In this document: one piece after another, positions 11,353 to 50,915 of the stretch
Numbering within the stretch: position 1 is the stretch's first letter
Layout: the number at the start of each line of letters is the position of its first letter
The notes under the pieces: model-generated
Databases searched by the model: none
What the model was told of the DNA's origin: nothing
The model's input: only the letters and a program-made list of their open reading frames with translations
Assembly (NCBI RefSeq): GCF_001988955.1
Contig: NZ_CP014263.1
Coordinates: 310,001 to 374,000, forward strand
Length of the DNA stretch: 64,000 nt
Reading direction: 5' to 3'
Source: Spirosoma montaniterrae
Lineage (GTDB): Bacteria > Bacteroidota > Bacteroidia > Cytophagales > Spirosomataceae
Program-made: the position numbers and the translations under genes

Positions 11353-12468
11353 TTGTTTTCTTCCTTAACGCTCCCGGCTGAGGTTGCCCAGTGGCGGCAA
11401 TCGCTCCGTCAGCAAATTCTGGCCCTGTCTGCCCAACCACCCAGCCGCCCGGCATTCGAGTCGCTGGCGTTGGCTGTATTTCGGTATCAGGCTGCACATA
11501 ATCCCGTTTACCGGGCATACGTAGGGCATTTAAACATCCGGCCCGAACACGTCAACGAGGTGCGCCGGGTGCCGTTCATGCCCATTGGCTTCTTTAAAAA
11601 CCACGCTATACTGACGGGTTTTTCATCCGACATTATACAACCCGAAACGATAACCTTTGCCAGCAGCGGTACAACCGGCGTACTGCCCAGCCATCATTAC
11701 GTGTTCGATGCCGACCTGTACAAGACGGTCAGTACGCAGATTTTCAGGCAAACATACGGTTCACTGGCCGGTATGCCTATTCTGGCTCTGCTACCATCGT
11801 ATCTTGAACGAAATAACTCGTCGTTAGTGTACATGGTTCAGCAATTTATGGAAGAATCCGGCTCTCCGTTGTCGGGTTTTTACCTGAATAACCACGACAA
11901 ACTAACCCGGCAGCTACGTCAGTTGGCCGAGCAGCCTGATCCACCCCGAACGCTGCTTATCGGCGTCACGTTTGGTTTGCTCGACTGGGTTGAATCGAAC
12001 CGCGATTTGTCGTTTTTAACGATGCATCCAAATTTGATCGTAATGGAAACCGGCGGTATGAAAGGACGCCGGAAAGAACTGCTGCGTGAAGAAGTACATC
12101 AGCTATTGCAGCAAAAAATCGGCGTGTCGGCCATTCATTCAGAATATGGCATGACCGAGCTGTTGTCGCAGGCATACTCCACTGGCGCAGGCATTTTCCG
12201 GCCCAGCCCGACCTTACGCGTCTATCTGCGCGACATCAACGACCCGTTTCACCTCTATGCCGATGCGCCGACAGACACCCATGAAACCACGCCCGGCACT
12301 CGTCGCACTGGCGGCATCAACGTAATTGATCTGGCGAATTTAGATTCCTGCGCCTTCATCGAAACCCAGGATTTGGGGCAGTATGCCGATAACGAAAGCG
12401 GCCAATTCAGTGTAATTGGCCGCTTCGATAACTCGGATGTGAGAGGGTGTAATCTGATGATAGTCTGA
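11353..12468 (+). CDS. LuxE-like acyl-protein synthetase family protein
   Basis: A 371-residue protein related to the LuxE acyl-protein synthetase/adenylate-forming family. Visible elements are FMPIGFFKNHAILTG, the nucleotide-binding loop TFASSGTTG followed by PSHHYV, VMETGGMKGRRKELLREE and the SEYGMTELLSQAYS block that corresponds to the adenylate-forming Y-G-x-T-E motif. Classical LuxE activates fatty acids for aldehyde synthesis with LuxC; no luxC, ACP or carrier gene is adjacent, so its substrate here is unknown. The start is a TTG at 11353; no upstream ATG is in frame. Its stop codon lies within a 37-bp inverted repeat. Confidence 0.8.
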   Translation: MFSSLTLPAEVAQWRQSLRQQILALSAQPPSRPAFESLALAVFRYQAAHNPVYRAYVGHLNIRPEHVNEVRRVPFMPIGFFKNHAILTGFSSDIIQPETITFASSGTTGVLPSHHYVFDADLYKTVSTQIFRQTYGSLAGMPILALLPSYLERNNSSLVYMVQQFMEESGSPLSGFYLNNHDKLTRQLRQLAEQPDPPRTLLIGVTFGLLDWVESNRDLSFLTMHPNLIVMETGGMKGRRKELLREEVHQLLQQKIGVSAIHSEYGMTELLSQAYSTGAGIFRPSPTLRVYLRDINDPFHLYADAPTDTHETTPGTRRTGGINVIDLANLDSCAFIETQDLGQYADNESGQFSVIGRFDNSDVRGCNLMIV

Positions 12469-12590
12469 ACCAGGATTAGCCAGGATTATCGCGATTAAAC
12501 AAGATTTATGCGCTCTGCTTGTTCGATTTTGAAAGAAGCGCAGCGTAGAATCCTGTTTAATCGCGATAATCCTGGCTAATCCTGGTTCAG
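12465..12590. repeat. 37-bp perfect inverted repeat, GATT-periodic family
   Basis: Arms 12465-12501 and 12554-12590 are perfectly complementary over 37 bp and separated by 52 bases. Each arm has GATT spaced about ten bases apart (CAGGATTAGCCAGGATTATC is the central part). The left arm contains the stop codon of the LuxE-like gene and the right arm ends two bases from the stop of the convergent regulator. A diverged copy is at 26792-26893. It can fold into a strong hairpin on both transcripts and probably acts as a bidirectional terminator. Confidence 0.92.
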
Positions 12591-20617: not shown

Positions 20618-21877
20618 ATGGATCGCGAACTGGCTCCTGAACTTGTTTCCCGCTCTCGCCGAAAGCCCTGGCTGATTGGCCTGACCGCCGTTGTTGGCCT
20701 GACCGGGGCTGTGCTGGGTATGCGTTCCTGGCTTAAAACATCGGTCGAAGCCAGCCGCATCCGCACGGCGGTGGTGCAGACCGGCCCCGTCGAGAATACG
20801 CTTACGGCAACGGGCGAGGTGATTCCGGCTTACGAACAAATCATGACCAGCCCCATCCGGGCCAGTATTCGGCGGATATTGTTTACGCCCGGTGCGCGGG
20901 TGCGGCCCGGTCAGCCTCTTGTTGAATTAGATAAATCGCTGACACAGATCGAGTATGAGAAGTTGCAGGACCAACTGGCCCTGAAGCAGAACGGCATCGA
21001 ACAACTGAGGATGAAATTAGATAAAAACCTCTACGATGCCGATATTAATGACCAAATCAAGTCGCTCAATATCAATAAATTACGCGCTGAGGTAGAGGAT
21101 GCCCAGCGGCTGCTGAAAGTGGGTGGGCAAACACCCGAAGACGTTACCCGCGCCGAAAACGCGCTCCGTATCGCGCAGTTGGAGAAGAAGCAGTTGGAAA
21201 ACGATCTGACCTACAACCGCCGGTCGATGGGCGCGAGTTTGCGCGAATCGCAGTTGCAGGCTCGCATTGAAGCGACAAACCTGAAAGTACTGGCGCAGAA
21301 ACTCCGGCAGGCCAACGTTCTGGCCGACCGGGCGGGCGTGCTGACGTGGGTCAATGAAAACGTTGGCTCGGCGGTAAACGAAGGTGAAATGCTGGCAAAA
21401 GTGGCCGATTTGGGCAGTTTTCGGGTCGAGGGTTCGTGTTCTGATGCATACGCCGATCAACTGAAAATGGGTCTGCCCGTTATTGTCCGCATCAACGATA
21501 CCGACCTGCGGGGGCAGATTACGCAGGTGAAACCCGCCGTGCAGAATAACACCGTGCGCTTTGCCGTGTCGTTAGACAACAGCAGTCATGCTTCATTACG
21601 GCCCAATCAAAAAGTCGAAGTTTTTGTCGTAACCAACCGTAGTTCGCAGGCTTTGCGCGTGGCAAATGGCCCGGCGTTTAAGGGCAAACGGAAACAGCCG
21701 GTGTTTGTGCTCGGAACCGACAATGTAGCGCACCGGCGCGAAGTCGAAATAGGGTTGACTAACTTCGATTGGGTCGAGATTAAAAGCGGGCTGCAACCCG
21801 GCGAGCGGGTCATCGTGACCGACCTGAGCGAATACGAACACGTAGAGCAGATCACGATAAATCCCGCGAAGCCATGA
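20618..21877 (+). CDS. periplasmic adaptor of a tripartite ABC efflux pump (HlyD/MacA-like)
   Basis: A 419-residue membrane-fusion protein: one N-terminal membrane helix (about residues 20-37), lipoyl half-motif around GQPLVELDKS, a long coiled-coil hairpin (about 110-230, rich in K, L, Q and E) and beta-barrel and membrane-proximal domains. It should bridge the FtsX-type permeases to TolC. It starts the operon 20.6-29.6 kb. The ATG at 20618 is preferred over an upstream TTG at 20609. The stop overlaps the tolC start as ATGA (21874-21877). It belongs with MacA-type adaptors because its partners are MacB-like. Confidence 0.9.
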   Translation: MDRELAPELVSRSRRKPWLIGLTAVVGLTGAVLGMRSWLKTSVEASRIRTAVVQTGPVENTLTATGEVIPAYEQIMTSPIRASIRRILFTPGARVRPGQPLVELDKSLTQIEYEKLQDQLALKQNGIEQLRMKLDKNLYDADINDQIKSLNINKLRAEVEDAQRLLKVGGQTPEDVTRAENALRIAQLEKKQLENDLTYNRRSMGASLRESQLQARIEATNLKVLAQKLRQANVLADRAGVLTWVNENVGSAVNEGEMLAKVADLGSFRVEGSCSDAYADQLKMGLPVIVRINDTDLRGQITQVKPAVQNNTVRFAVSLDNSSHASLRPNQKVEVFVVTNRSSQALRVANGPAFKGKRKQPVFVLGTDNVAHRREVEIGLTNFDWVEIKSGLQPGERVIVTDLSEYEHVEQITINPAKP

Positions 21878-23421
21878 GAATACCCCACCCCAACCTCTCC
21901 CCGTTAGGGAGGGGATTTTGCACCCGGATGGTAAGCCCCTCCCTAATGGGGAGGGGTTGGGGGTGGGGTATCTTGCTCCTCCTCCCGTTCCTCACCCATG
22001 CCCAGCCGCTGACGCTCTCGCTGGATGAGGTGGTAACACTGGCCCGGCAACAGTCGATTGCGGGCAAACAGGCGGCTACGTTACAGAAAACCAATTACTG
22101 GAAATATCGGTCGTTTCTGGCCGATTTCAGGCCGCAGTTGAGCCTCGACGGATCGCTGCCGAGTTTTACGCGCTCGTTTATTCAGGTGCAGCAGCCCGAT
22201 GGCACTATTGCGTTTCAGCCGGTATCGAACAATAATTCGGTGCTCAATTTATCGCTGAGTCAGAATATTCCACTTACGGGTGGGTCGATTTACGTCCAAC
22301 AGCAGTTGCAGCGATTCGATGATTTTCTGAACCAGAACACACTCTATAATGGCATTCCGTTCGCTGTTGGGCTAAGTCAGCCGCTGTTCCGGTTCAACCC
22401 CATGAAGTGGGATCGTCGGATTGAGCCGCTGCGTTACGCCGAAAGCAATCAGCAATACATTGAAAGCATGGAGCAAGTGGCCTTAGACGCCACCGGCCTG
22501 TATTTCGACCTACTGGTAGCGCAGGTCAACCTCCAGATTGCCGAAACCAACCGGGCCAATAACGATACGTTGCTGACCATTGCCCGGCATAAACTCGAAT
22601 TGGGTAAAATCTCGCGCAACGACTTGCTGCAACTGCAACTGAGTGTACTGAATGCCCGTAAAGATTTGGCGTCGGCCCGGCAAACCGCCGAAGTGGCTTC
22701 GCTGAAACTCCGAACCTTTCTGAACATACAGGGTGAAATCAACGCGCTCCGCCCGTTCGATCTGGCAATCCCGAATCAGATTCGTTCGTTTTCCGTCGAT
22801 GTGAAACAGGCACTTAATCAGGCGTTTGCTAACCGCTCGGATGCTATTGGGTTTCAGCGCAGAAAATTGGAAGCCGACCGCGACGTAGACCGGGCGCGTA
22901 AAGAAAACGGCCTGAACGCCACCCTGAACGCCGATTTCGGTCTGACCAACCGGGGCAACCGACCGGGCGACGTGTATGTGCGTCCACAGAACCGGCAGTT
23001 TGTGGAGGTAAGCTTTACGGTGCCCATTATGACGTGGGGGCGGCAGCGGGCGCGTCTGGAAACGGCCAACGCCAATGCCGAACTAACGGTGCAAACGCTC
23101 GAACAGGCCAAGCGCACGTTTGAGCAGCAGGTTTACACGCAGGTGACGCTTATCGAGATGCTTCGGCAGCAGGTGAAACTGACCGCCGAAGCCGACGAAA
23201 TTGCCCAGAGCCGCTACCAGATTGCTCAGGAACGCTTCAAACTCAGCGACCTGACCGTAACGGACCTCGGCATTGCCATTCAGGACAAAGACCGTGCCCG
23301 GCGCGACGCCATCCTGGCCCTGCGCGACTATTGGCAGGCCTATTACACGCTCCGCCTGCTGACACTGTTCGATTTTGAAACAAACCAGAAAATTACCCCA
23401 CCCCCGGCCCCTCCCCAGTAG
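21874..23421 (+). CDS. tolC: TolC-family outer-membrane efflux protein
   Basis: A 515-residue outer-membrane channel protein with two repeats of the outer-membrane efflux domain; long coiled-coil helices around residues 190-290 and 385-470 (LEQAKRTFEQQVYTQV), and a QNIPLTGGSIYVQQQL segment characteristic of Bacteroidota TolC proteins. It would form the exit duct for the pump. The first 30 or so codons are supplied by an inverted repeat, giving an odd n-region; M19 or M25 (GRGWGWGILLLLPFLTHAQ region) may be the real start of the signal peptide. The last codons, TPPPAPPQ and the stop, come from a second repeat element. Confidence 0.9.
   Translation: MRIPHPNLSPLGRGFCTRMVSPSLMGRGWGWGILLLLPFLTHAQPLTLSLDEVVTLARQQSIAGKQAATLQKTNYWKYRSFLADFRPQLSLDGSLPSFTRSFIQVQQPDGTIAFQPVSNNNSVLNLSLSQNIPLTGGSIYVQQQLQRFDDFLNQNTLYNGIPFAVGLSQPLFRFNPMKWDRRIEPLRYAESNQQYIESMEQVALDATGLYFDLLVAQVNLQIAETNRANNDTLLTIARHKLELGKISRNDLLQLQLSVLNARKDLASARQTAEVASLKLRTFLNIQGEINALRPFDLAIPNQIRSFSVDVKQALNQAFANRSDAIGFQRRKLEADRDVDRARKENGLNATLNADFGLTNRGNRPGDVYVRPQNRQFVEVSFTVPIMTWGRQRARLETANANAELTVQTLEQAKRTFEQQVYTQVTLIEMLRQQVKLTAEADEIAQSRYQIAQERFKLSDLTVTDLGIAIQDKDRARRDAILALRDYWQAYYTLRLLTLFDFETNQKITPPPAPPQ
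21880..21971. repeat. GC-rich inverted repeat inside the tolC 5' end
   Basis: Arms 21880-21914 and 21936-21971 pair with one gap and two mismatches, loop 21 bases. Arms are of the type ACCCCAACC...TCCCCGTTAGGG. The related element at 23395-23493 has the same core. It begins six bases after the tolC ATG and lies wholly in tolC coding sequence, so its 92 bases are translated. Confidence 0.92.
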
Positions 23422-23493
23422 GGAGGGGAGCAATGCTCCGCCAGTGAGACGTTCCGTCTCCGCTCCTTAATGGGGAGGGGCCGGGGGTGGGGT
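23395..23493. repeat. composite inverted repeat at the tolC stop
   Basis: Outer arms 23395-23425 and 23463-23493 (ACCCCACCCCCGGCCCCTCC type) pair over about 31 bp with few mismatches. The interior holds two further small dyads, GGAGCAATGCTCC at about 23426 and GAGACGTTCCGTCTC at 23446-23460. The left arm encodes the last eight residues and the TAG stop of tolC; the right arm ends ten bases before the ATPase start. Confidence 0.9.
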
Positions 23494-23503
23494 TCAAGCA
23501 ACT

Positions 23504-24199
23504 ATGATACACCTCAAAAACATCGAAAAAGTCTACCGTACCAGCACCATCGAGACGGTGGCCCTGACGAAAGTAAACCTCCACATTCGGGCGGGTGAGT
23601 TTGTGTCCATTATGGGGCCAAGCGGCTGTGGTAAGTCAACGCTGCTCAACCTGATGGGCCTGCTCGATACGCCCAGCGCGGGGCAGGTTGAGATTGGCGG
23701 GCAGGCCGTGACACAGTACCGCGACAAAGAACTGGCCCAACTCCGAAACCAGAACATCGGTTTCATTTTTCAGAGCTTCCACCTCATTAACGACCTCTCG
23801 ATACTCGACAACGTAGAGATTCCGCTGCTGTATCGAAAAGGCGATACTACAGGCGCGTCGCGTCGGCAACTGGCGCAGGAGGCTTTGGCGAAAGTGGGGC
23901 TGAGTCATCGCACAAAGCATTTTCCGGGCCAGCTATCGGGCGGGCAGAAACAGCGCGTGGCCATTGCCCGCGCCATTGTGGGCCAACCCAGCATCATTCT
24001 GGCCGACGAACCGACGGGCAATCTCGACAGCGCGATGGGTAACGAGATCATGAACATTCTGCAACACCTCAACACCGAGGGTAGCACCATCATCATGGTA
24101 ACGCACGACGAAGCAATGGCGAAAAAAACGCACCGGCTCGTGCGGCTATTCGACGGGGCGATGGTAGGAGACTCTGTTTTAGTGATGAGCGATAAGTGA
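23504..24199 (+). CDS. ABC transporter ATPase (MacB/LolD type)
   Basis: A 231-residue nucleotide-binding protein of the LolD/FtsE/MacB class: Walker [10 protein letters not shown] (about 38-46), Q-loop [10 protein letters not shown], signature [14 protein letters not shown], Walker [13 protein letters not shown] and the switch histidine in VTHDEAM. It energises the two FtsX-type permeases that follow. Length is typical. The last codons and the TGA are part of the 24182-24266 inverted repeat. Confidence 0.95.
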
Positions 24200-24266
24200 T
24201 GAGTGATGAGTGGGCTGACCGCCCCATCGTTTGCTCACCTATAACTCATCACTTATCGTTCATCAC
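24182..24266. repeat. inverted repeat between ATPase and first permease
   Basis: Arms 24182-24204 and 24244-24266 pair at 22 of 23 positions (core CTCATCACTTATCG on the right arm). The left arm contains the last codons and stop of the ATPase gene; the right arm ends eight bases before the permease ATG at 24275. The sequence is simple and internally repetitive (GTGATGA units). Confidence 0.9.
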
Positions 24267-24274
24267 TCATCACT

Positions 24275-25516
24275 ATGTTAACTAACTACATCAAAATCGC
24301 CTGGAAGGTGTTGCTGCGGCACCCGTTTTACACCTTCATTACGCTCTTCGGCATCAGCCTCACGCTCACCGTGCTGATGGTGCTGACCTCATTTCTGGAT
24401 CACCTGATCGGGAGCCATTACCCTGAGTACAAACGCGACCGTTCGCTGTACTTGCTACATATCAGGCTGACCGATTCAACGAACCGGTCTGGTAATATGA
24501 GCGATTTTAGCTACAAGTTTCTCAAGCAGCACGTGTTCTCGCTCAAGACGCCCGAAAAAGTGGCTATGGTATCGACCTGGGCCTGGGCAAACTCCTACGT
24601 CGACGGCAAGCGCATCAAGGTCAAAAGCAAGTTCAGCGACGCCAACTTCTGGGACGTAACGGATTTTACATTCCTCGAAGGCAAGCCCTACAGCGAGCAG
24701 AACATCGCCAACGCCGACCCCGTAGCGGTAATTACCGACGCCTTTCGCACCGACTACTTTGGCCTGAACACCAACGCAGTAGGCAAAACCATTGAAGTCG
24801 ATAATGCACGCTACCGGGTCATCGGCGTCGTGAAAGCCGCGCCGATCACGCGTTTGTTTTCGTCGGCAGAGGTGTACTTGCCCTATACATTGCCCAAAAG
24901 CAACTACCAGAAAGGCGAGTATCTCGGCTCGTTCAACGCCATTATTCTGGCCCGTAACCAGCGTGATTTCAAAGCCATTCAGGATGAATACAATCAGTCG
25001 GTGAAGCGCATACCGATACCGTTTATGGAAGGTAACTGGCTGAAAGTATTCTACATCCGTGCCGAAGCAAAACCGTACTTAGATACGTTCATACAGAACT
25101 TCCCCAGTGGCCCCAACAGCACCACAGTGTACACAGTGATTACACTCATTATGCTGCTGTTTATGCTGCTGCCCGCCATTAATTTGGTCAACCTCAACGT
25201 GGGACGTAGTATGGAGCGGGCGTCGGAAATTGGCGTTCGGAAAGCGTTTGGTGCGCCCGTCCGTACACTGCTGGGCCAGTTCGTAATCGAAAACGTATTC
25301 ATCACGCTCCTTGGCGGACTGATTGCGCTCGGGCTGTCGGCACTCATTCTAAGCCTGATTAATCAGAGCGGGTGGATTCTGCACAGCGACCTGACTATCA
25401 ATCTGAGCGTACTGGCTGTCAGTATTTTTCTCTGTCTCATTTTTGGCATCCTGTCGGGCGTTATTCCTGCCTGGCGCATGGCTAAACTTCCTATTGCTGA
25501 TGCACTTAAAAGTTAA
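24275..25516 (+). CDS. ABC transporter permease, FtsX/MacB type
   Basis: A 413-residue protein with the FtsX/MacB layout: membrane helix at about 20-42, a long periplasmic MacB-core domain (about 50-280), then three C-terminal helices with the NLVNLNVGRSMERASEIGVRKAFGA coupling region that contacts the ATPase. Works as mechanotransmitter in a tripartite efflux complex. The paralogue at 25617 is probably the second half of a heterodimer. Substrate is unknown; MacB-type pumps export peptides, antibiotics or lipids. Confidence 0.9.
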   Translation: MLTNYIKIAWKVLLRHPFYTFITLFGISLTLTVLMVLTSFLDHLIGSHYPEYKRDRSLYLLHIRLTDSTNRSGNMSDFSYKFLKQHVFSLKTPEKVAMVSTWAWANSYVDGKRIKVKSKFSDANFWDVTDFTFLEGKPYSEQNIANADPVAVITDAFRTDYFGLNTNAVGKTIEVDNARYRVIGVVKAAPITRLFSSAEVYLPYTLPKSNYQKGEYLGSFNAIILARNQRDFKAIQDEYNQSVKRIPIPFMEGNWLKVFYIRAEAKPYLDTFIQNFPSGPNSTTVYTVITLIMLLFMLLPAINLVNLNVGRSMERASEIGVRKAFGAPVRTLLGQFVIENVFITLLGGLIALGLSALILSLINQSGWILHSDLTINLSVLAVSIFLCLIFGILSGVIPAWRMAKLPIADALKS

Positions 25517-25519
25517 TCT

Positions 25520-25610
25520 TTGAATGATTGAATGACTGAATGATTGAATTACTGACGTCCAGCTATTCACTCATTTGGCTACTCAATCATTTAGACATTC
25601 AATCATTCAA
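25520..25610. repeat. inverted repeat between the two permeases
   Basis: Arms 25520-25549 and 25581-25610, with the outer 15 bases perfectly paired (TTGAATGATTGAATG against CATTCAATCATTCAA) and several inner mismatches. It starts three bases after the stop codon of the first permease and ends six bases before the second ATG. Confidence 0.85.
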
Positions 25611-25616
25611 TAAACT

Positions 25617-26789
25617 ATGTTACAACACCTCATAACCCTCATCTGGAACAAGAAGCGGACGCACGCGCTGCTGATTGTCGAAATTCTGGCTTCTTTTCTG
25701 GTGCTCTTTGGTGTGTCGAGCCTGATTATCGACAATCTGGGCAATTACCAGACGCCCATTGGCTACCAGTATAAAGACCGCTGGGTCATCAGCATGGACT
25801 GGGGCCAAACGCCCGACTCGCTTGCCGACCCCATCCGGCAACAACTCAAACAGCGTGTACTGGCTTATCCGCAGGTGGTAGCGGCCAGCCTGTCGTCGGG
25901 CAACACGCCTTTTTCCAACGGTACGTCCAACGGCGAGCCAACCTACAATGGCGTGAAACTGATGACCTACAACTACTGGGTCGATACCGATTATGCCCGA
26001 ACGTATGAAATACCCGTGCTGGAAGGCCGCTGGTTCGATAAGTCCGACGAAGCCGCAGCGGTTACGCCCGTGATTATCAATGAACCATTCCGCCGTAAGG
26101 TGTTTGGCGGTAGTCCAGCGGTAGGCAAACTGCTGCTCAACGACGAAGATAAAAAAGACAAAAAACGGATCATCGGCGTGATTGGTAACTTTAAGAAAGA
26201 TGGCGAATACGAGAAGAATGAGCCGGGTATGTTTTACCGCGTGAAAAGCAATGAATGGCAGAGTTCTCTGAGCATCCACGTCCGGCCCGACACCGACGCT
26301 ACGTTCGAGGGGCGAATGATGCGCGACCTGAGTCAGATAGCCAAAGGCTGGAACCTCGAATTGAGCTACCTGACCGATCAGCGGGAGGGCAAGCACAACA
26401 TAACGCTCGTACCGATGATTATCTTCTTAGTAGTCAGTACATTCCTGCTCATTAACGTGGCCCTCGGCCTGTTTGGGGTGCTCAACGTAAGCATCACCAG
26501 ACGCCGGGGCGAAATTGGTCTGCGCCGGGCACTGGGGGCTACGGAGAGAAGCATTTCGTGGCAGTTTGTTGGCGAGATGTGGGTGCTGGCTACCTTTGCG
26601 CTACTGCTGGGGCTGGTGCTGGCCGGGCAGTTTCCGCTGCTGAACGTGTTCGATCTGAGCGCAGGCGTGTACCTGACCGCAATGGCCGTTTCGGTCGTAG
26701 TCATCTACGTCATAATCACTTTGTGCGCCTTATATCCCAGCAGGCAGGCCGCCACTATTCAACCAGCCGTGGCCTTGCATGAGGAATAA
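25617..26789 (+). CDS. ABC transporter permease, FtsX/MacB type (second subunit)
   Basis: A 390-residue paralogue of the preceding permease: helix at about 15-38, large periplasmic domain to about 265, three C-terminal helices with NVSITRRRGEIGLRRALGA as the coupling helix. The two permeases share this motif but little else, which fits a heterodimeric exporter. It is followed by an inverted repeat and then the two-component regulator of the operon. Confidence 0.9.
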   Translation: MLQHLITLIWNKKRTHALLIVEILASFLVLFGVSSLIIDNLGNYQTPIGYQYKDRWVISMDWGQTPDSLADPIRQQLKQRVLAYPQVVAASLSSGNTPFSNGTSNGEPTYNGVKLMTYNYWVDTDYARTYEIPVLEGRWFDKSDEAAAVTPVIINEPFRRKVFGGSPAVGKLLLNDEDKKDKKRIIGVIGNFKKDGEYEKNEPGMFYRVKSNEWQSSLSIHVRPDTDATFEGRMMRDLSQIAKGWNLELSYLTDQREGKHNITLVPMIIFLVVSTFLLINVALGLFGVLNVSITRRRGEIGLRRALGATERSISWQFVGEMWVLATFALLLGLVLAGQFPLLNVFDLSAGVYLTAMAVSVVVIYVIITLCALYPSRQAATIQPAVALHEE

Positions 26790-26791
26790 TC

Positions 26792-26893
26792 CGAACCAGA
26801 ATTAGCCATGATGTTTAGGATTAAACAAGATTGGCTGATTCGTCACGAATAATCTTGTTTAATCCAAATAATCCTGGCCAATCCTGGTTCAGA
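26792..26893. repeat. inverted repeat, diverged GATT-periodic family copy
   Basis: Arms 26792-26833 and 26852-26893 pair over 42 positions with about eight mismatches; the inner 13 bases (GGATTAAACAAGATT side) match best. It is a diverged relative of the element at 12465-12590, sharing CTGAACCAGGATT, GCCAGGATTAT and GATTAAACAAGATT. It begins three bases after the permease stop and ends one base before the regulator start at 26895. Confidence 0.88.
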
Positions 26894-26894
26894 C

Positions 26895-28283
26895 ATGCTG
26901 CTACTAATCGACGACGATATCGCTATTCAAACTTCGCTTTCGCTGCTGTTCAGGAAAGAAGGTTTCGCCGTGCGCATGGCCGACGGGCCGTTTGAAACCC
27001 GCGACGTGCTGGCCGAAGAAACGCCCGAAGCTATTGTACTCGATATGAACTTTTCGGTCGATACGTCGGGCGACGATGGGCTGCGGCTGTTGCGCTACCT
27101 GCGCGAACACCTGCCCACCGTGCCGGTGATTTTGCTGACAGGCTGGGGTAGCATCGATCTTGCCGTGCAGGGTATGAAAGCCGGAGCCAGCGATTTTATT
27201 ACCAAACCCTGGCAAAACGAACACCTCGTACAGTCGGTCAGAACGGCCCTGAAACTGTCGGCTGCGGCCCGGCAGTCGGGCGAACCCGCATCGGCCAGTC
27301 GGCGGCAGTTGGACGAGCAGTTCCAGCTCGACAACATCGTGGGCGAAGACCCGCGCCTGCTCGACGTGCTGGCAACCATCGGGCGTGTGGCCTCTACCGA
27401 CGCGCCGGTGCTGATTACGGGCGAGAGTGGTACGGGAAAAGAACTTATCGCCGAAGCCGTGCATCAGAACAGCCGACGCAAACGCCAGCCATTCGTGAAA
27501 GTCAATCTCGGCGGCATTTCGAGTACGCTCTTCGAGAGCGAACTGTTCGGTCACGTGCGCGGAGCCTTCACCGATGCCAAAACCGACCGCGTGGGCCGGT
27601 TTGAGTTAGCCAGCAAAGGCAGTATTTTTTTAGACGAAATCGGCGATCTCGATCCGGCCAGTCAGGTAAAACTGCTGCGCGTGTTGCAGGACCGAACGTT
27701 CGAGCCGCTGGGCAGCAGCAAAAGCCGCACAGTGGACGTGCGCGTGATTTGCGCTACCAACCGCAATCTGGAAGAGATGGTAGCCAAAGGCGAATTTCGC
27801 GAAGATTTGTACTACCGTATCAACCTGATTACGGTTCGTTTGCCTGCCCTCCGCGAACGCCCCGCCGATATTCCGCGCTTAGTCGATTTTTTTGTCGACA
27901 ACCTGAAAACGCTCTATAATCGGCCCAACCTGCAAGTCGATAAATCGGCGCGACAGTGGCTTAAAAATTTGACGTTACCCGGCAACATCCGGCAGTTGAA
28001 AAACATAGTCGAGCGCACCGTACTGCTGTCAGGCACGGACATACTCACCATTGACGACTTTGAAAAACACCTTCCTACCACCCATGCCGCCCCCGTTACC
28101 CATGCGTTTTTACCCCCCGTTGGCAGCATGACGCTCGATGAAATGGAACGGCAAATGATTGAGCGGGCTATGACTTTTCACAACAACCGCGTTGCCAATG
28201 TGGCGCGGGCGTTGGGCATTACGCGCTTCGCCCTGTATCGGCGATTAGAGAAATACGGTCTGAACTATGATTCGTCGGATTGA
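26895..28283 (+). CDS. NtrC-type sigma-54 response regulator
   Basis: A 462-residue regulator: receiver domain (D50 in IVLDMNF), AAA+ domain with Walker A GESGTGKE, sigma-54 loop RGAFTDAK (GAFTDA instead of GAFTGA), Walker B IFLDEIGD, arginine-finger region FREDLYYRINL, and a Fis-type helix-turn-helix at the C-terminus (RVANVARALGITRFALYRRL). Partner of the kinase starting at 28380. It should control the efflux operon or related genes from sigma-54 promoters. The last codons and stop lie within the 28259-28290 arm of an inverted repeat. The G-to-D change in the loop is seen in several Bacteroidota regulators. Confidence 0.93.
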   Translation: MLLLIDDDIAIQTSLSLLFRKEGFAVRMADGPFETRDVLAEETPEAIVLDMNFSVDTSGDDGLRLLRYLREHLPTVPVILLTGWGSIDLAVQGMKAGASDFITKPWQNEHLVQSVRTALKLSAAARQSGEPASASRRQLDEQFQLDNIVGEDPRLLDVLATIGRVASTDAPVLITGESGTGKELIAEAVHQNSRRKRQPFVKVNLGGISSTLFESELFGHVRGAFTDAKTDRVGRFELASKGSIFLDEIGDLDPASQVKLLRVLQDRTFEPLGSSKSRTVDVRVICATNRNLEEMVAKGEFREDLYYRINLITVRLPALRERPADIPRLVDFFVDNLKTLYNRPNLQVDKSARQWLKNLTLPGNIRQLKNIVERTVLLSGTDILTIDDFEKHLPTTHAAPVTHAFLPPVGSMTLDEMERQMIERAMTFHNNRVANVARALGITRFALYRRLEKYGLNYDSSD

Positions 28284-28380
28284 ACTGATTCGTCTGATTC
28301 TGCTTTTGGCGGTGAAAAATAAACCGGCAGAGCCGGAAAATCATAGTAAATCAGTTCAATCCGACGAATCATAGTTCAGA
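28259..28380. repeat. 32-bp perfect inverted repeat joining regulator and kinase
   Basis: Arms 28259-28290 and 28349-28380 are perfectly complementary over 32 bp, loop 58 bases. The left arm encodes the last residues and stop of the regulator gene; the right arm ends on the A of the kinase ATG at 28380. GATT recurs every nine bases, as in the families at 12465 and 26792. Confidence 0.94.
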
Positions 28381-29648
28381 TGACTCGCTACTTAGTCTAC
28401 ATTATTGCCGTTCATGCGGTGCTTGTGGCCCTGACGTTTCAGGTGCTGAAAACAAGCAAACAATGGTTTATTGCCTCCGAAGTGCTGATTGGGCTGTCGC
28501 TGGTAGTGGGCTGGCGGATTTATCGGTCGTTTCAAAAACCGTCGGAGTTTATTGCGTCGGGTATCGAAGCCATTCGCGATCAGGATTTTACGGTCAAGTT
28601 TGTACCAACCGGCAACCGGGACGTCGATGAACTGATTCGGGTGTATAACCTGATGATCGACCAATTGCGGCTCGAACGCACACGGCAGGCCGAACAGCAA
28701 TTTTTCTTAGACAAATTAGTCGATGCGTCGCCCATTGCCCTGCTCATTCTCGATTTCGACGAGCGCGTATCGGCCATCAATCCGAAAGCCCGGAAGCTGC
28801 TCGATCTGCCCGATAATCAGTTGATTGGTAAACCGCTGACTGCAATCGGGCATCCACTGCTGGCGCAACTTAGTACGCTGCAACCCGATCAGCCGCAGAC
28901 CGTAAAACTGGCGGGCGTTGAAACGTATCGGGTATTGCTGGGGCAGTTTATCGACCGTGGATTTCGGCGGCAATTTCTGTTTATCGAAGAACTCACGGCT
29001 GAGATTATCGAGACTGAAAAGAAGGCTTACGGAAAGGTAGTCAGGATGATGGCGCATGAAGTCAACAACTCCATCGGGGCAATCAACTCCATTCTGCACA
29101 TTGCTGAGCCGGAACTACCAAATCCCGATTTGCGGCAGGCTGTTCGGGTAGCTATCGAACGCAACGACCGGCTCAACCTGTTCATGCGCCGGTTCGCCGA
29201 CGTAGTGCGGTTGCCAGTACCAAATAGAGCATCGACCAACCTGACTGTATTCGTAGACGCTGTGGGGCAACTCATGCAGCCTCAGGCTCACGCCCGTGGT
29301 GTGCAGCTAACCACGCAGCTACCCGCCGAGCCGGTATACTGGTTAGTCGACATAGGGCAAATGGAGCAGGTATTAGTCAATGTTGTAAAAAACGCACTTG
29401 AAGCTTGCACTGCCGGTAACGTGGTTGATATTGAGTTGACTAATAGGCAGTTGGCCGTGCGAAACAACGGTCAGCCGATTCCCGATACTGTGGTTGCAAA
29501 CCTGTTCGATCCGTTTTTTAGCACCAAAACTATCGGGCAGGGTATCGGCCTGACGCTAACCCGCGAAATTCTGCTTAATCACGGTTTTTCGTTCTCACTC
29601 GCCACCGAAGCCGATGGCTGGACGGTGTTTCGGTTGAATGGGCATTAG
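28380..29648 (+). CDS. membrane sensor histidine kinase (NtrY-like)
   Basis: A 422-residue kinase: two N-terminal helices (about 5-25 and 30-48) with almost no periplasmic loop, a HAMP-like linker, a PAS domain (about 110-205, SPIALLILDFDERVSAINPKA), and a kinase core with H-box AHEVNNSIGAI, N box NVVKNALEAC and an F/G2 block (LFDPFFSTKTIGQGIGLTL). The absent external loop implies sensing inside the membrane or cytoplasm. Translation probably starts at 28380, at the inverted-repeat edge. With the NtrC-type regulator it forms the two-component pair for this operon. Confidence 0.92.
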   Translation: MTRYLVYIIAVHAVLVALTFQVLKTSKQWFIASEVLIGLSLVVGWRIYRSFQKPSEFIASGIEAIRDQDFTVKFVPTGNRDVDELIRVYNLMIDQLRLERTRQAEQQFFLDKLVDASPIALLILDFDERVSAINPKARKLLDLPDNQLIGKPLTAIGHPLLAQLSTLQPDQPQTVKLAGVETYRVLLGQFIDRGFRRQFLFIEELTAEIIETEKKAYGKVVRMMAHEVNNSIGAINSILHIAEPELPNPDLRQAVRVAIERNDRLNLFMRRFADVVRLPVPNRASTNLTVFVDAVGQLMQPQAHARGVQLTTQLPAEPVYWLVDIGQMEQVLVNVVKNALEACTAGNVVDIELTNRQLAVRNNGQPIPDTVVANLFDPFFSTKTIGQGIGLTLTREILLNHGFSFSLATEADGWTVFRLNGH

Positions 29649-36375: not shown

Positions 36376-36489
36376 GTGACTGGCTGACGCGAGAGAGACG
36401 CAAAGGTGGCTGGCTGGCGCGAGAGAGACGCAAAGGGTTGCGTCTCTACAATTGACCATCCGGTGTAGAGACGCAACCCTTTGCGTCTC
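36376..36489. repeat. composite GAGACGCAA repeat element
   Basis: Two 30-bp direct units (36376-36405 and 36406-36435, 28 of 30 identical) each end in GAGACGCAAAG. The second runs into a perfect 26-bp inverted repeat (36425-36450 with 36464-36489), and each arm of that repeat is itself a GAGACGCAA...TTGCGTCTC palindrome. An outer 9-bp dyad GCTGGCGCG / CGCGCCAGC encloses it. It lies between sufB and the DUF4177 gene. The same core is at 5964-6020. Confidence 0.92.
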
Positions 36490-36516
36490 ATCCGCGCCAG
36501 CTATCAAAGCTACAGA

Positions 36517-39893: not shown

Positions 39894-40586
39894 TTATGGC
39901 AGCCCCGGAATGTTCAGCCACTGGTTCGGATTGGGGCAGATGCTTAGAAAACGGGCACGGTCGGCCACGGAGCAAACGCCGGGGAAGTCGCCGTGCAGGC
40001 CGAGCAGGTCGTTCATCACCTGAAAATGCAGGTGCGGGGGCCAGTCGCCGTTTTCGGGGTAAGGGCCAATTTCGGCAATTTTTTCGCCTGCCTTTACTGA
40101 TTTTCCAACGAATAGACCATCGAGAGACGTGCGCGTCAGGTGGCCGTAGAGCGAGTAACGCGGCTGAAAAGCTGCATTTTTCATCTCTGCCAGCGGCTTT
40201 CCAGCCGCGTTACTGTGTTCCAGAATGATGGTTGGGCCATAGTCGCCGAAATTGTTATTATCCTGAAAGCTGTGTACCACCCCGTCGAAGGGCGCAAATA
40301 CGGGTGTACCGGCTTCGGCCCAGAAGTCAATGCCGAGGTGAATTTCGCGGGGTTCAGGCTGCTCGTCGGTGCGGATTCTCTGAAAATGATTGCTACGGCG
40401 GTAAATGGTGCGGTGTTCGTTGTAGCCGCCCACGCCAATCACCGCGCCCGCGTCGCGGAGTTTGCCGAATACGTAGTCGTTAAATGCCGCTGTGTTGGTT
40501 AGGTCAAGGCTGAGCAGGTCGGGGTTTGTGGCCGAGAAGTCGAGAACCAGAAACCGCTCGCGGTAGAAGTCGTAAGGAAGGAGCAT
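39894..40586 (-). CDS. M23-family metallopeptidase domain protein
   Basis: A 230-residue protein with a LytM/M23 peptidase fold. Zinc site elements are present: HLGID, the YGHL motif and the HLHFQ pair (the H of the first motif and the second H of the third would bind zinc). No signal peptide is evident, which is unusual for a peptidoglycan hydrolase but is common in a cytoplasm-facing subgroup seen in Bacteroidota. Start at 40586 is chosen over 40604. The target could be an envelope peptide or a small molecule; sequence alone does not tell. Confidence 0.8.
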   Translation of the reverse strand: MLLPYDFYRERFLVLDFSATNPDLLSLDLTNTAAFNDYVFGKLRDAGAVIGVGGYNEHRTIYRRSNHFQRIRTDEQPEPREIHLGIDFWAEAGTPVFAPFDGVVHSFQDNNNFGDYGPTIILEHSNAAGKPLAEMKNAAFQPRYSLYGHLTRTSLDGLFVGKSVKAGEKIAEIGPYPENGDWPPHLHFQVMNDLLGLHGDFPGVCSVADRARFLSICPNPNQWLNIPGLP

Positions 40587-50127: not shown

Positions 50128-50823
50128 ATGCCGAAGATCGTTATTGCCATTGACGGGCATTCGAGTTGCGGAAAAAGTACGACCGCCAAAGCCGTTGCGG
50201 CCCGCATGGGCTACGGTTATATTGATACCGGGGCTATGTACCGGGCCGTTACATTATTTTTCACGCAGGAACGTATATCGCTGACTAACCCACGTGAGAT
50301 TAATGCCGCCCTCGATGCCATTCATATCACATTCAACCATAATAGCCGCACCGGCAAAAATGAAACCTGCCTTAATGGGCTGAATGTGGAAGAGGAAATC
50401 CGAAAGATGTATATTTCCAATTTAGTTAGTGAAGTAAGCGTAATTCCTGAAGTGCGCCGGGCAATGGTGGCGCAACAGCAGCGCATGGGCCGCAGGCGGG
50501 GTGTAGTGATGGATGGGCGAGATATTGGCACGAAGGTTTTTCCCGATGCCGAGGTAAAAGTGTTCATGACTGCCGAGACGCTCATCCGGGCCAAACGCCG
50601 ACAGCAGGAGTTGCTGGCAAAAGGCGAACTGATTAATCTCGACGACATCGTAGAAAACCTCAAAAAGCGTGATTTTATCGACTCCACCCGTGCCGAAAGT
50701 CCACTGATTCAGGCTCCCGACGCCATACTGCTCGATACGTCGTATATGACCATTGAAGAGCAGGTCGATTGGGTTATCGAACAGGCTGACCGCCGACTGG
50801 CGCAACTGCATAGAGGAAAGTGA
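50128..50823 (+). CDS. cmk: cytidylate kinase
   Basis: A 231-residue CMP/dCMP kinase: phosphate-binding loop IDGHSSCGKSTTAK, CMP-binding residues in GYIDTGAMYRAV and VVMDGRDIGTKVFPDAEVKVF, and the lid region around TAETLIRAKRRQQE. Makes CDP/dCDP for nucleotide pools. The ATG at 50128 is the usual start. The TGA stop lies in the left arm of an inverted repeat. Confidence 0.95.
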   Translation: MPKIVIAIDGHSSCGKSTTAKAVAARMGYGYIDTGAMYRAVTLFFTQERISLTNPREINAALDAIHITFNHNSRTGKNETCLNGLNVEEEIRKMYISNLVSEVSVIPEVRRAMVAQQQRMGRRRGVVMDGRDIGTKVFPDAEVKVFMTAETLIRAKRRQQELLAKGELINLDDIVENLKKRDFIDSTRAESPLIQAPDAILLDTSYMTIEEQVDWVIEQADRRLAQLHRGK

Positions 50824-50915
50824 AAAGTGAAAAATGTAAAGTGAATAGTATGACCAACAGGAAGTGGTACAGAACGTGTGCCCATTTTTCATTATACATT
50901 TTTCACTTTTCACTT
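50818..50915. repeat. 21-bp perfect inverted repeat after cmk
   Basis: Arms 50818-50838 and 50895-50915 (AAGTGAAAAGTGAAAAATGT type) pair perfectly over 21 bp with a 56-base loop. The left arm includes the cmk stop codon (50821-50823); the right arm ends seven bases before the ATG at 50923. Confidence 0.92.

Follow-up and report, generated by a model that had tools for sequence, protein, structure and literature searches.

An efflux operon in a 64,000-nt stretch of the Spirosoma montaniterrae genome (hereafter the window; G000:C1:310001-374000 of a one-contig 5.8-Mb genome) carries six hairpin-forming inverted repeats. We consider it fairly probable that these resemble repetitive extragenic palindromic (REP) elements and REP doublets forming hairpins (REPIN), that they colonise gene ends where they are tolerated, that their arms are matched by template switching and that their families replace one another. 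The operon, a crowded example of this gene-end population, encodes in order an HlyD adaptor, TolC, an ABC ATPase, two MacB-like permeases, a sigma-54 response regulator and a histidine kinase; these gene names, originally proposed from the sequence, were backed by Pfam domain matches.

Two scans recovered all six inverted repeats at, or a few bases from, their predicted positions, with arm lengths of 28-43 nt in one scan and 24-40 nt in the other (Table 1). They account for six of the 11 such repeats in the whole window, against none in each of five Markov-shuffled controls. Folded as RNA, hairpins 1 to 6 had z-scores of -7.66, -9.15, -9.66, -7.94, -7.77 and -13.31, respectively, and none of the 200 shuffles made for each hairpin was as stable. 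The original prediction of a hairpin at every internal junction of the operon was thus correct as to the existence of all six, but the first lies inside tolC codons. By arm type, hairpins 3 and 4 are built of short repeated words, hairpin 2 has a hairpin nested in its arm and hairpins 1, 5 and 6 belong to neither type. The two CCCC-rich hairpins (1 and 2) formed one cluster and hairpins 5 and 6 shared one loose cluster (CTGAAC...GATT), so that four types remain among the six, in agreement with the proposed minimum of four. No Rfam model matched the 64-kb window at gathering score, and a known Rfam element was rejected on that basis.

Comparable elements were found across the genome. A sample of 864 kb, comprising the window and 40 stretches of 20 kb, contained 135 inverted repeats of comparable strength, against one in a shuffled control, and the convergence of unrelated elements on gene junctions first noticed in the operon was seen throughout. 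According to a simple longest-open-reading-frame (ORF) caller, 56 lay in tandem, 31 in convergent and 9 in divergent gaps, 34 were centred in an ORF and 5 were at stretch ends. With the window left out, the repeat-bearing junctions numbered 29 among 106 convergent, 64 among 415 tandem and 11 among 87 divergent ones. Clustering gave 42 clusters, nine of them multi-member and holding 102 of the 135 repeats, and 33 singletons. Among the 90 repeats whose arms reached 24 nt or more, 48 had repeated-word arms (period 7 in 17, 8 in 15, 10 in 10, 9 in 5 and 12 in 1), 23 had a nested arm hairpin and 19 had neither; the word test was applied per repeat at 5%, so that a few false positives are expected, as illustrated by one arm of the genome's own REPIN that scored as a word.

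Individual families were dispersed. The 15-mer core GAACCAGGATTAGCC had 74 genome-wide matches (36 forward, 38 reverse; none in a reversed-pattern control), 50 of which formed 25 inverted pairs 87-276 nt apart, and the core of hairpin 6 had 22 matches in about 12 genome places. A 30-mer of another family occurred exactly in 13 of 36 genus genomes, with 20 matches in one, and in one genome the hairpin of that family turned up at some 44 places, 40 of the 138 candidates having been scored. Exact-word scans with two words matched 2 of 198 genomes of the phylum and 2 of 98 of the order, the genome under study included in both, exact matching being unfit for drifting words.

Some families could be connected to transposase genes. 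The genome has three Y1_Tnp genes, and one of them (L179), which by its length and motif looks like that of a REP-associated tyrosine transposase (RAYT), has members of the AGTAACGCGG family on either side. At 21 RAYT-like loci, 20 of the genus plus the one of this genome and hence a sample of about 143 existing matches, an inverted repeat lay within 350 nt in 18 and on both sides in 11, many of these repeats being of GTAG-, GTAA- or GTAC-ended types. Two RAYT-flanking types also occupy orthologous operon junctions, GTAGCC in L060 and GTACCCGACAGC in L076. A member of the AGTAACGCGG family, which flanks the RAYT-like gene at G000:C1:3915248, was seen in the window at 40154-40214. RAYT-like genes of L375 and L381 (in G015 and G007) are flanked by GTACCCGACAGCAT palindromes, a type held by the ATPase/permease 1 junction of L076, and a second Y1_Tnp type (MPNTYTQI...) adjoins CTACAAAC- or GTCCCTACGGGAC-type inverted repeats in L177, L178, L322, L323 and L326-L328. 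Mobility would be the cause of the dispersal. Flanking direct repeats, examined as target-site duplications around 318 repeats, were equal in length to those of shuffled pairs, as expected of single-strand movement of the IS200/RAYT type. A DDE-type miniature inverted-repeat transposable element (MITE), such as NEMIS, ERIC or RUP, was rejected for lack of target-site duplication excess in this set; the AT/AT flanks of the tolC hairpin are a single 2-nt case.

The alignment of orthologous loci, suggested originally as a check, showed that a given junction can have its hairpin, lack it or carry another in its place. Repeats were called at 58 of 210 orthologous operon junctions (six in each of 35 genomes), an undercount in which weak copies are missed, such as that at the regulator/kinase junction of the relative L092; the window had six, the next three genomes four each and seven of the 35 none. 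The repeats at a single orthologous junction fell into up to seven clusters, with the exception of permease 1/permease 2, where 14 repeats chained into one cluster of 8-nt words. Outside the genus, a Saprospiraceae metagenome-assembled genome has a GATT-type inverted repeat with 64-nt arms at permease 1/permease 2 (L099 1941-2082). In one pair of an empty and a filled site, 1 nt separated stop and start in the former and a hairpin-bearing gap of 140 nt in the latter; in another, between convergent genes, the gap measured 2 versus 95 nt.

Between the syntenic genomes G021 and G001, 21 of 23 repeats of the former could be located in the latter, with 10 alike, 8 different, 3 other and 0 empty. 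Inspection of the alignments of the eight differing sites identified three unrelated hairpins, four that had been reworded and one small terminator-like stem. The reverse comparison located 16 of 22 (8 alike, 7 different and 1 counted as empty, its gap being inconsistent), G004 to G005 located seven and missed eight (4 alike, 2 different, 1 scored empty) and G009 to G020 located eight and missed one (6 alike, 2 different). Clear swaps of unrelated families were therefore observed mainly in one of three species pairs, together with the operon junctions. Hairpin-bearing gaps of G021/G001 had a median identity of 0.69 versus 0.84 in other gaps (p=0.011, for a set that includes the part that gave p=0.053), and the other two pairs pointed in the same direction (p=0.057 and 0.18).

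The two arms of a hairpin tended to change together. In 20 orthologous repeats of at least 55 nt with arm identity of at least 0.75, gapped pairs set aside and nine shorter repeats excluded from the sum, 461 arm pairs comprised 393 without change and 54 with a single change; of the double changes, 11 were compensated and 3 were not. About 1.2 compensated changes were predicted under independent change. At tandem junctions, G.U and A.C mismatches were counted in ratios of 45:49, 39:31 and 28:23 in three data sets, of which the second and third overlap in part. Since G.U was no commoner than A.C, RNA-level selection by wobble asymmetry was rejected, and the originally proposed selection for hairpins that set mRNA stability found no support. 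Coupled change without RNA-strand asymmetry fits DNA-level template-switch correction better than RNA selection, on small counts, and recent whole-element replacement would mimic it. The pairing of the arms may thus be maintained in the DNA itself, template-switch correction at replication being the most likely means. Judging from the predicted folds, strong mRNA hairpins should form, with no sign that selection favours them, which is consistent with neutrality.

The original prediction also invoked a mechanism that targets stop codons. Ends lying at most 5 nt from a stop numbered 49 against 14.1 ± 3.7 for repeats placed at random in their gaps and free to overlap genes by up to 30 nt, but 46 against 38.8 ± 2.7 when the 67 non-overlapping repeats were confined to the gap, the largest of 3000 such simulations giving 49. 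Selection would largely impose the latter restriction. Strong stop-codon targeting was accordingly rejected: the comparison with chance looked decisive under the looser null, and the stricter null removed most of the excess. This result, and a median residual gap beside the repeat of 2.5 to 24.5 nt at five of six orthologous operon junctions, indicate that closeness to stops is mostly geometry, the element filling the gap, to which are added the stops carried by element ends. Read inward, 178 element ends had stops in 1.54 of three frames within 30 nt, against 1.32 for shuffled ends and 0.71 for the other strand; the 88 ends facing no gene end were equally stop-rich (1.55 versus 0.72 frames). 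Among 108 gene ends situated no more than 60 nt from a repeat, 34 had a stop that the repeat covered at least in part, and one family had the stop within its outer 20 nt at 5 of 21 places. In looser tandem gaps, 17 of 25 repeats of this genome were nearer the stop than the start (p=0.11), and in six relatives the proportion was 48 of 53 (p=7e-10, the paired species not being independent).

Some of the operon hairpins contribute to the coding sequences they touch. Hairpin 1 lies in frame within the signal-peptide codons of tolC and is not intergenic; the palindrome plus one AT makes 90 nt, or 30 codons, between MRI and LLLLPFLTHAQ. The tolC leaders of relatives differ from that of the window, many having about 20 residues, and an empty site was not found in any close relative, so that insertion is the inferred origin. 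An ATG inside hairpin 1 could, from the sequence, serve as an alternative tolC start. A CCCC-rich hairpin of different sequence was also seen within the tolC N-terminal codons of a Cytophagales bacterium (L092 4008-4128, oriented). Hairpin 2 supplies the tolC stop (TAG 23419-23421) and the C-terminal tail TPPPAPPQ, where many relatives end in QKIK. Measured back from the last base of the upstream stop codon, hairpins 2, 3 and 6 begin 27, 19 and 25 nt earlier, which puts the coding 3' end inside the left arm, and hairpin 4 starts 3 nt past the stop and ends 6 nt ahead of the next ATG. The regulator reading frame ends within the left arm of hairpin 6, from which its last codons come. A copy of native regulator coding sequence into the right arm was considered and rejected: L092 has a decayed copy of the element at the same regulator/kinase junction, which together with the approximately 12 core places identifies hairpin 6 as a member of a dispersed family whose arm now encodes the last residues of the regulator. 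Where the right arm of L092 retains the base commoner in the family, that of the window agrees with its own left arm. The stop codon of the adaptor gene shares an ATGA with the tolC start (21874-21877).

Table 1 Genes and hairpins of the efflux operon (positions in the window).
Feature	Position	Strand	Remarks
HlyD-type membrane-fusion adaptor gene	20618..21877	+	Pfam HlyD_3, 1.1e-12
TolC-like outer membrane efflux protein	21874..23421	+	Pfam OEP, 4e-38
Hairpin 1, CCCC family (ACCCC...GGGGT, 88 nt)	21882..21969	unstranded	inside tolC codons; AT on each side
Hairpin 2, CCCC family	23395..23493	unstranded	tolC/ATPase; nested hairpin in arm
ABC-transporter ATPase	23504..24199	+	Pfam ABC_tran, 1.6e-35
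Hairpin 3, 7-nt word family (AGTGATG)	24180..24275	unstranded	ATPase/permease 1; upstream stop within left arm
MacB-like permease 1	24275..25516	+	Pfam MacB_PCD, FtsX
Hairpin 4, 8-nt word family (TGAATGAT)	25520..25610	unstranded	permease 1/permease 2
MacB-like permease 2	25617..26789	+	Pfam FtsX, MacB_PCD
Hairpin 5, CTGAACCAGGATTAGCC family member (with variants)	26790..26893	unstranded	permease 2/regulator
Sigma-54-dependent response regulator	26895..28283	+	Pfam Sigma54_activat, Response_reg, HTH_8
Hairpin 6, GAACTRTGATTCGTCGGATT family	28259..28380	unstranded	regulator/kinase; 32-nt arms, 100% complementary
Histidine kinase	28380..29648	+	Pfam HATPase_c, 2.6e-14

Elsewhere in the window, a 126-nt member of the GAACCAGGATTAGCC family with 42-nt arms takes up the gap between two convergent genes from stop to stop (12465-12590), a GAGACGCAAAGGGTTGCGTCTC nested-hairpin, REP-like element lies between convergent genes (36413-36501) and an AGTGAAA-word hairpin lies over the junction of two co-directional genes (50818-50915). 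At G000:C1:1657666-1657730, overlapping exact matches indicate a tandem array of about eight copies of the 8-nt word TGAATGAT.

According to the explanation we favour, the six hairpins would be members of a many-family population of the REP/REPIN/MITE kind, commonly of about 60-150 nt, in a Spirosoma-type genome. The palindromes would spread as units and be tolerated mainly at gene 3' ends, because ends that read stop codons inward do little harm there, and at a tight operon junction an element would necessarily touch both the stop and the next start. Families could replace one another at one site over species time, those with tags and nested hairpins being probably linked to RAYT-like genes and the word-type families having no visible transposase. 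Several observations weigh against this explanation. Six hairpins in one operon are not expected from random colonisation: the longest run of repeat-bearing tandem junctions in the 40 stretches outside the window was two, and a run of six was reached in 0 of 2000 permutations of these stretches, which is unusual, though the run was chosen post hoc; in neighbouring tandem junctions outside the window no clustering was evident (7 adjacent pairs versus 6.3 expected). If only insertion and loss were at work, empty sites should be more frequent than the none among 21 seen from G021 to G001, where eight were different. Two more divergent repeats gave one compensated change against about 1.7 expected, and the stop-side bias in looser gaps would also be explained by function at transcript 3' ends. 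Finally, no word-type repeat was seen beside a transposase in 32 loci, where the gene was not clearly picked in L316, L319, L335, L337, L338 and L340, or in 20 further RAYT-like loci read out of the approximately 143 matches, which leaves mobility unproven for hairpins 3 and 4.

A tentative alternative, possible but not likely in our view, is that the gene ends of the genus hold persistent hairpin slots. Their arms would be rewritten jointly by template switching and word slippage, and unrelated families would take them over; word palindromes would renew themselves without a dedicated transposase, their stop-rich ends letting them persist.

It seems unlikely that these are functional intercistronic hairpins that block 3'-5' decay or offer an RNase III cut, and so set the pump subunit ratio, any sequence being acceptable in a slot. 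The very stable folds, the preferential filling of convergent junctions, the position of the repeats nearer the stop and, in one species pair, the different repeats at 8 of 21 located slots with none empty are all compatible with such a function; the equality of G.U and A.C mismatches speaks against it, as does the occupancy of 58 of 210 orthologous junctions, with none called in seven of the 35 genomes, although the scan misses weak copies. We doubt still more that the hairpins arise in place, by inverted copying of gene ends and short-word slippage with no mobile element involved: the word-built arms (48/90), the coupled arm changes and the reworded yet recognisable hairpins of one slot would follow from it, but alone it does not give families with conserved sequence across genome and genus. 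Intrinsic terminators or attenuators between genes are highly improbable, for although convergent stop-to-stop elements could act both ways, the six right arms all lack a T run after them, the arm lengths of 24-43 nt and spacings of 5-58 nt do not resemble those of short terminator hairpins, and a scan permitting loops of 3-8 only gave 13 terminator-like sites in the region against 11.0 ± 3.5 expected, none on the six stems and one, on the minus strand, within the loop of hairpin 6. Perfect inverted repeats are described to peak 50-80 bp past bacterial stop codons and are ascribed to termination in the part of that report available to us (PMC13155455).

By extrapolation, the genome would hold several hundred gene-end palindromes, with several families side by side. 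Related species with different hairpins at the same junction offer a tractable system, which permits a direct test of whether the arms are matched by template switching or selection and allows one to ask what moves palindromes without a visible transposase and whether the hairpins affect operon expression. For annotation, gene ends, and here one signal peptide, can be element-derived.

The closest known systems, consulted in partial texts, are REP/REPIN elements with their RAYTs (GTAG-/CGTC-tagged palindromes, PMC3733652; REPINs, PMC3116915). They share with the present population several short palindromic families per genome in inverted pairs, a location between co-directional or convergent genes with ends that often give the stop, some copies within ORFs and, for some of the families, RAYT-like genes flanked by palindromes, as at L179 and its relatives. 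Here the repeats are likewise repeated, mostly extragenic, inverted in pairs, downstream of genes and stop-giving, and the combination of a tag and nested arms (23/90) occurs in other families of the genome. They differ in that none of the six operon hairpins has a GTAG/CGTC tag and only the tolC/ATPase hairpin scores as nested, and in that the commonest arm type here, short tandem words, was not seen beside the inspected transposase genes. Rickettsia palindromic elements and other small bacterial MITEs, as described in the accessible part of PMC2229807, are similar as palindromes of about 100-200 nt that are mostly intergenic and in some cases part of a protein reading frame, as happens in the tolC signal peptide of this operon; the present repeats show no target-site duplication excess, and many unrelated families share one genome. 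The TAACTGA heptamer repeats of Beggiatoaceae, Cyanobacteria and five Bacteroidetes are also intergenic short-word repeats, with stop codons in all three frames and able to overlap the upstream stop, but they are direct, apart from one inverted set in the BOGUAY genome, whereas here the words are in both hairpin arms (PMC4679880, as far as its available text goes). Creation and maintenance of hairpins by template switching predicts arm matching and multibase compensated changes as seen here; the accessible part of that paper (PMC8794818) concerns RNA genes and contains no application to dispersed gene-end palindromes. In the literature searched, which covered few subscription papers, we found no account of orthologous junctions at which one hairpin has given way to an unrelated one. 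The original remark that its author knew of no such described system is not supported as stated: REP elements lie mostly between co-directional and convergent genes and their GTAG ends often provide a TAG stop, so that stop-supplying palindromes in these positions are already in print (PMC3733652, available portion). What appears to be new beyond published REP elements is the word-type arms, the turnover of families within a slot and the coupled changes of the arms.

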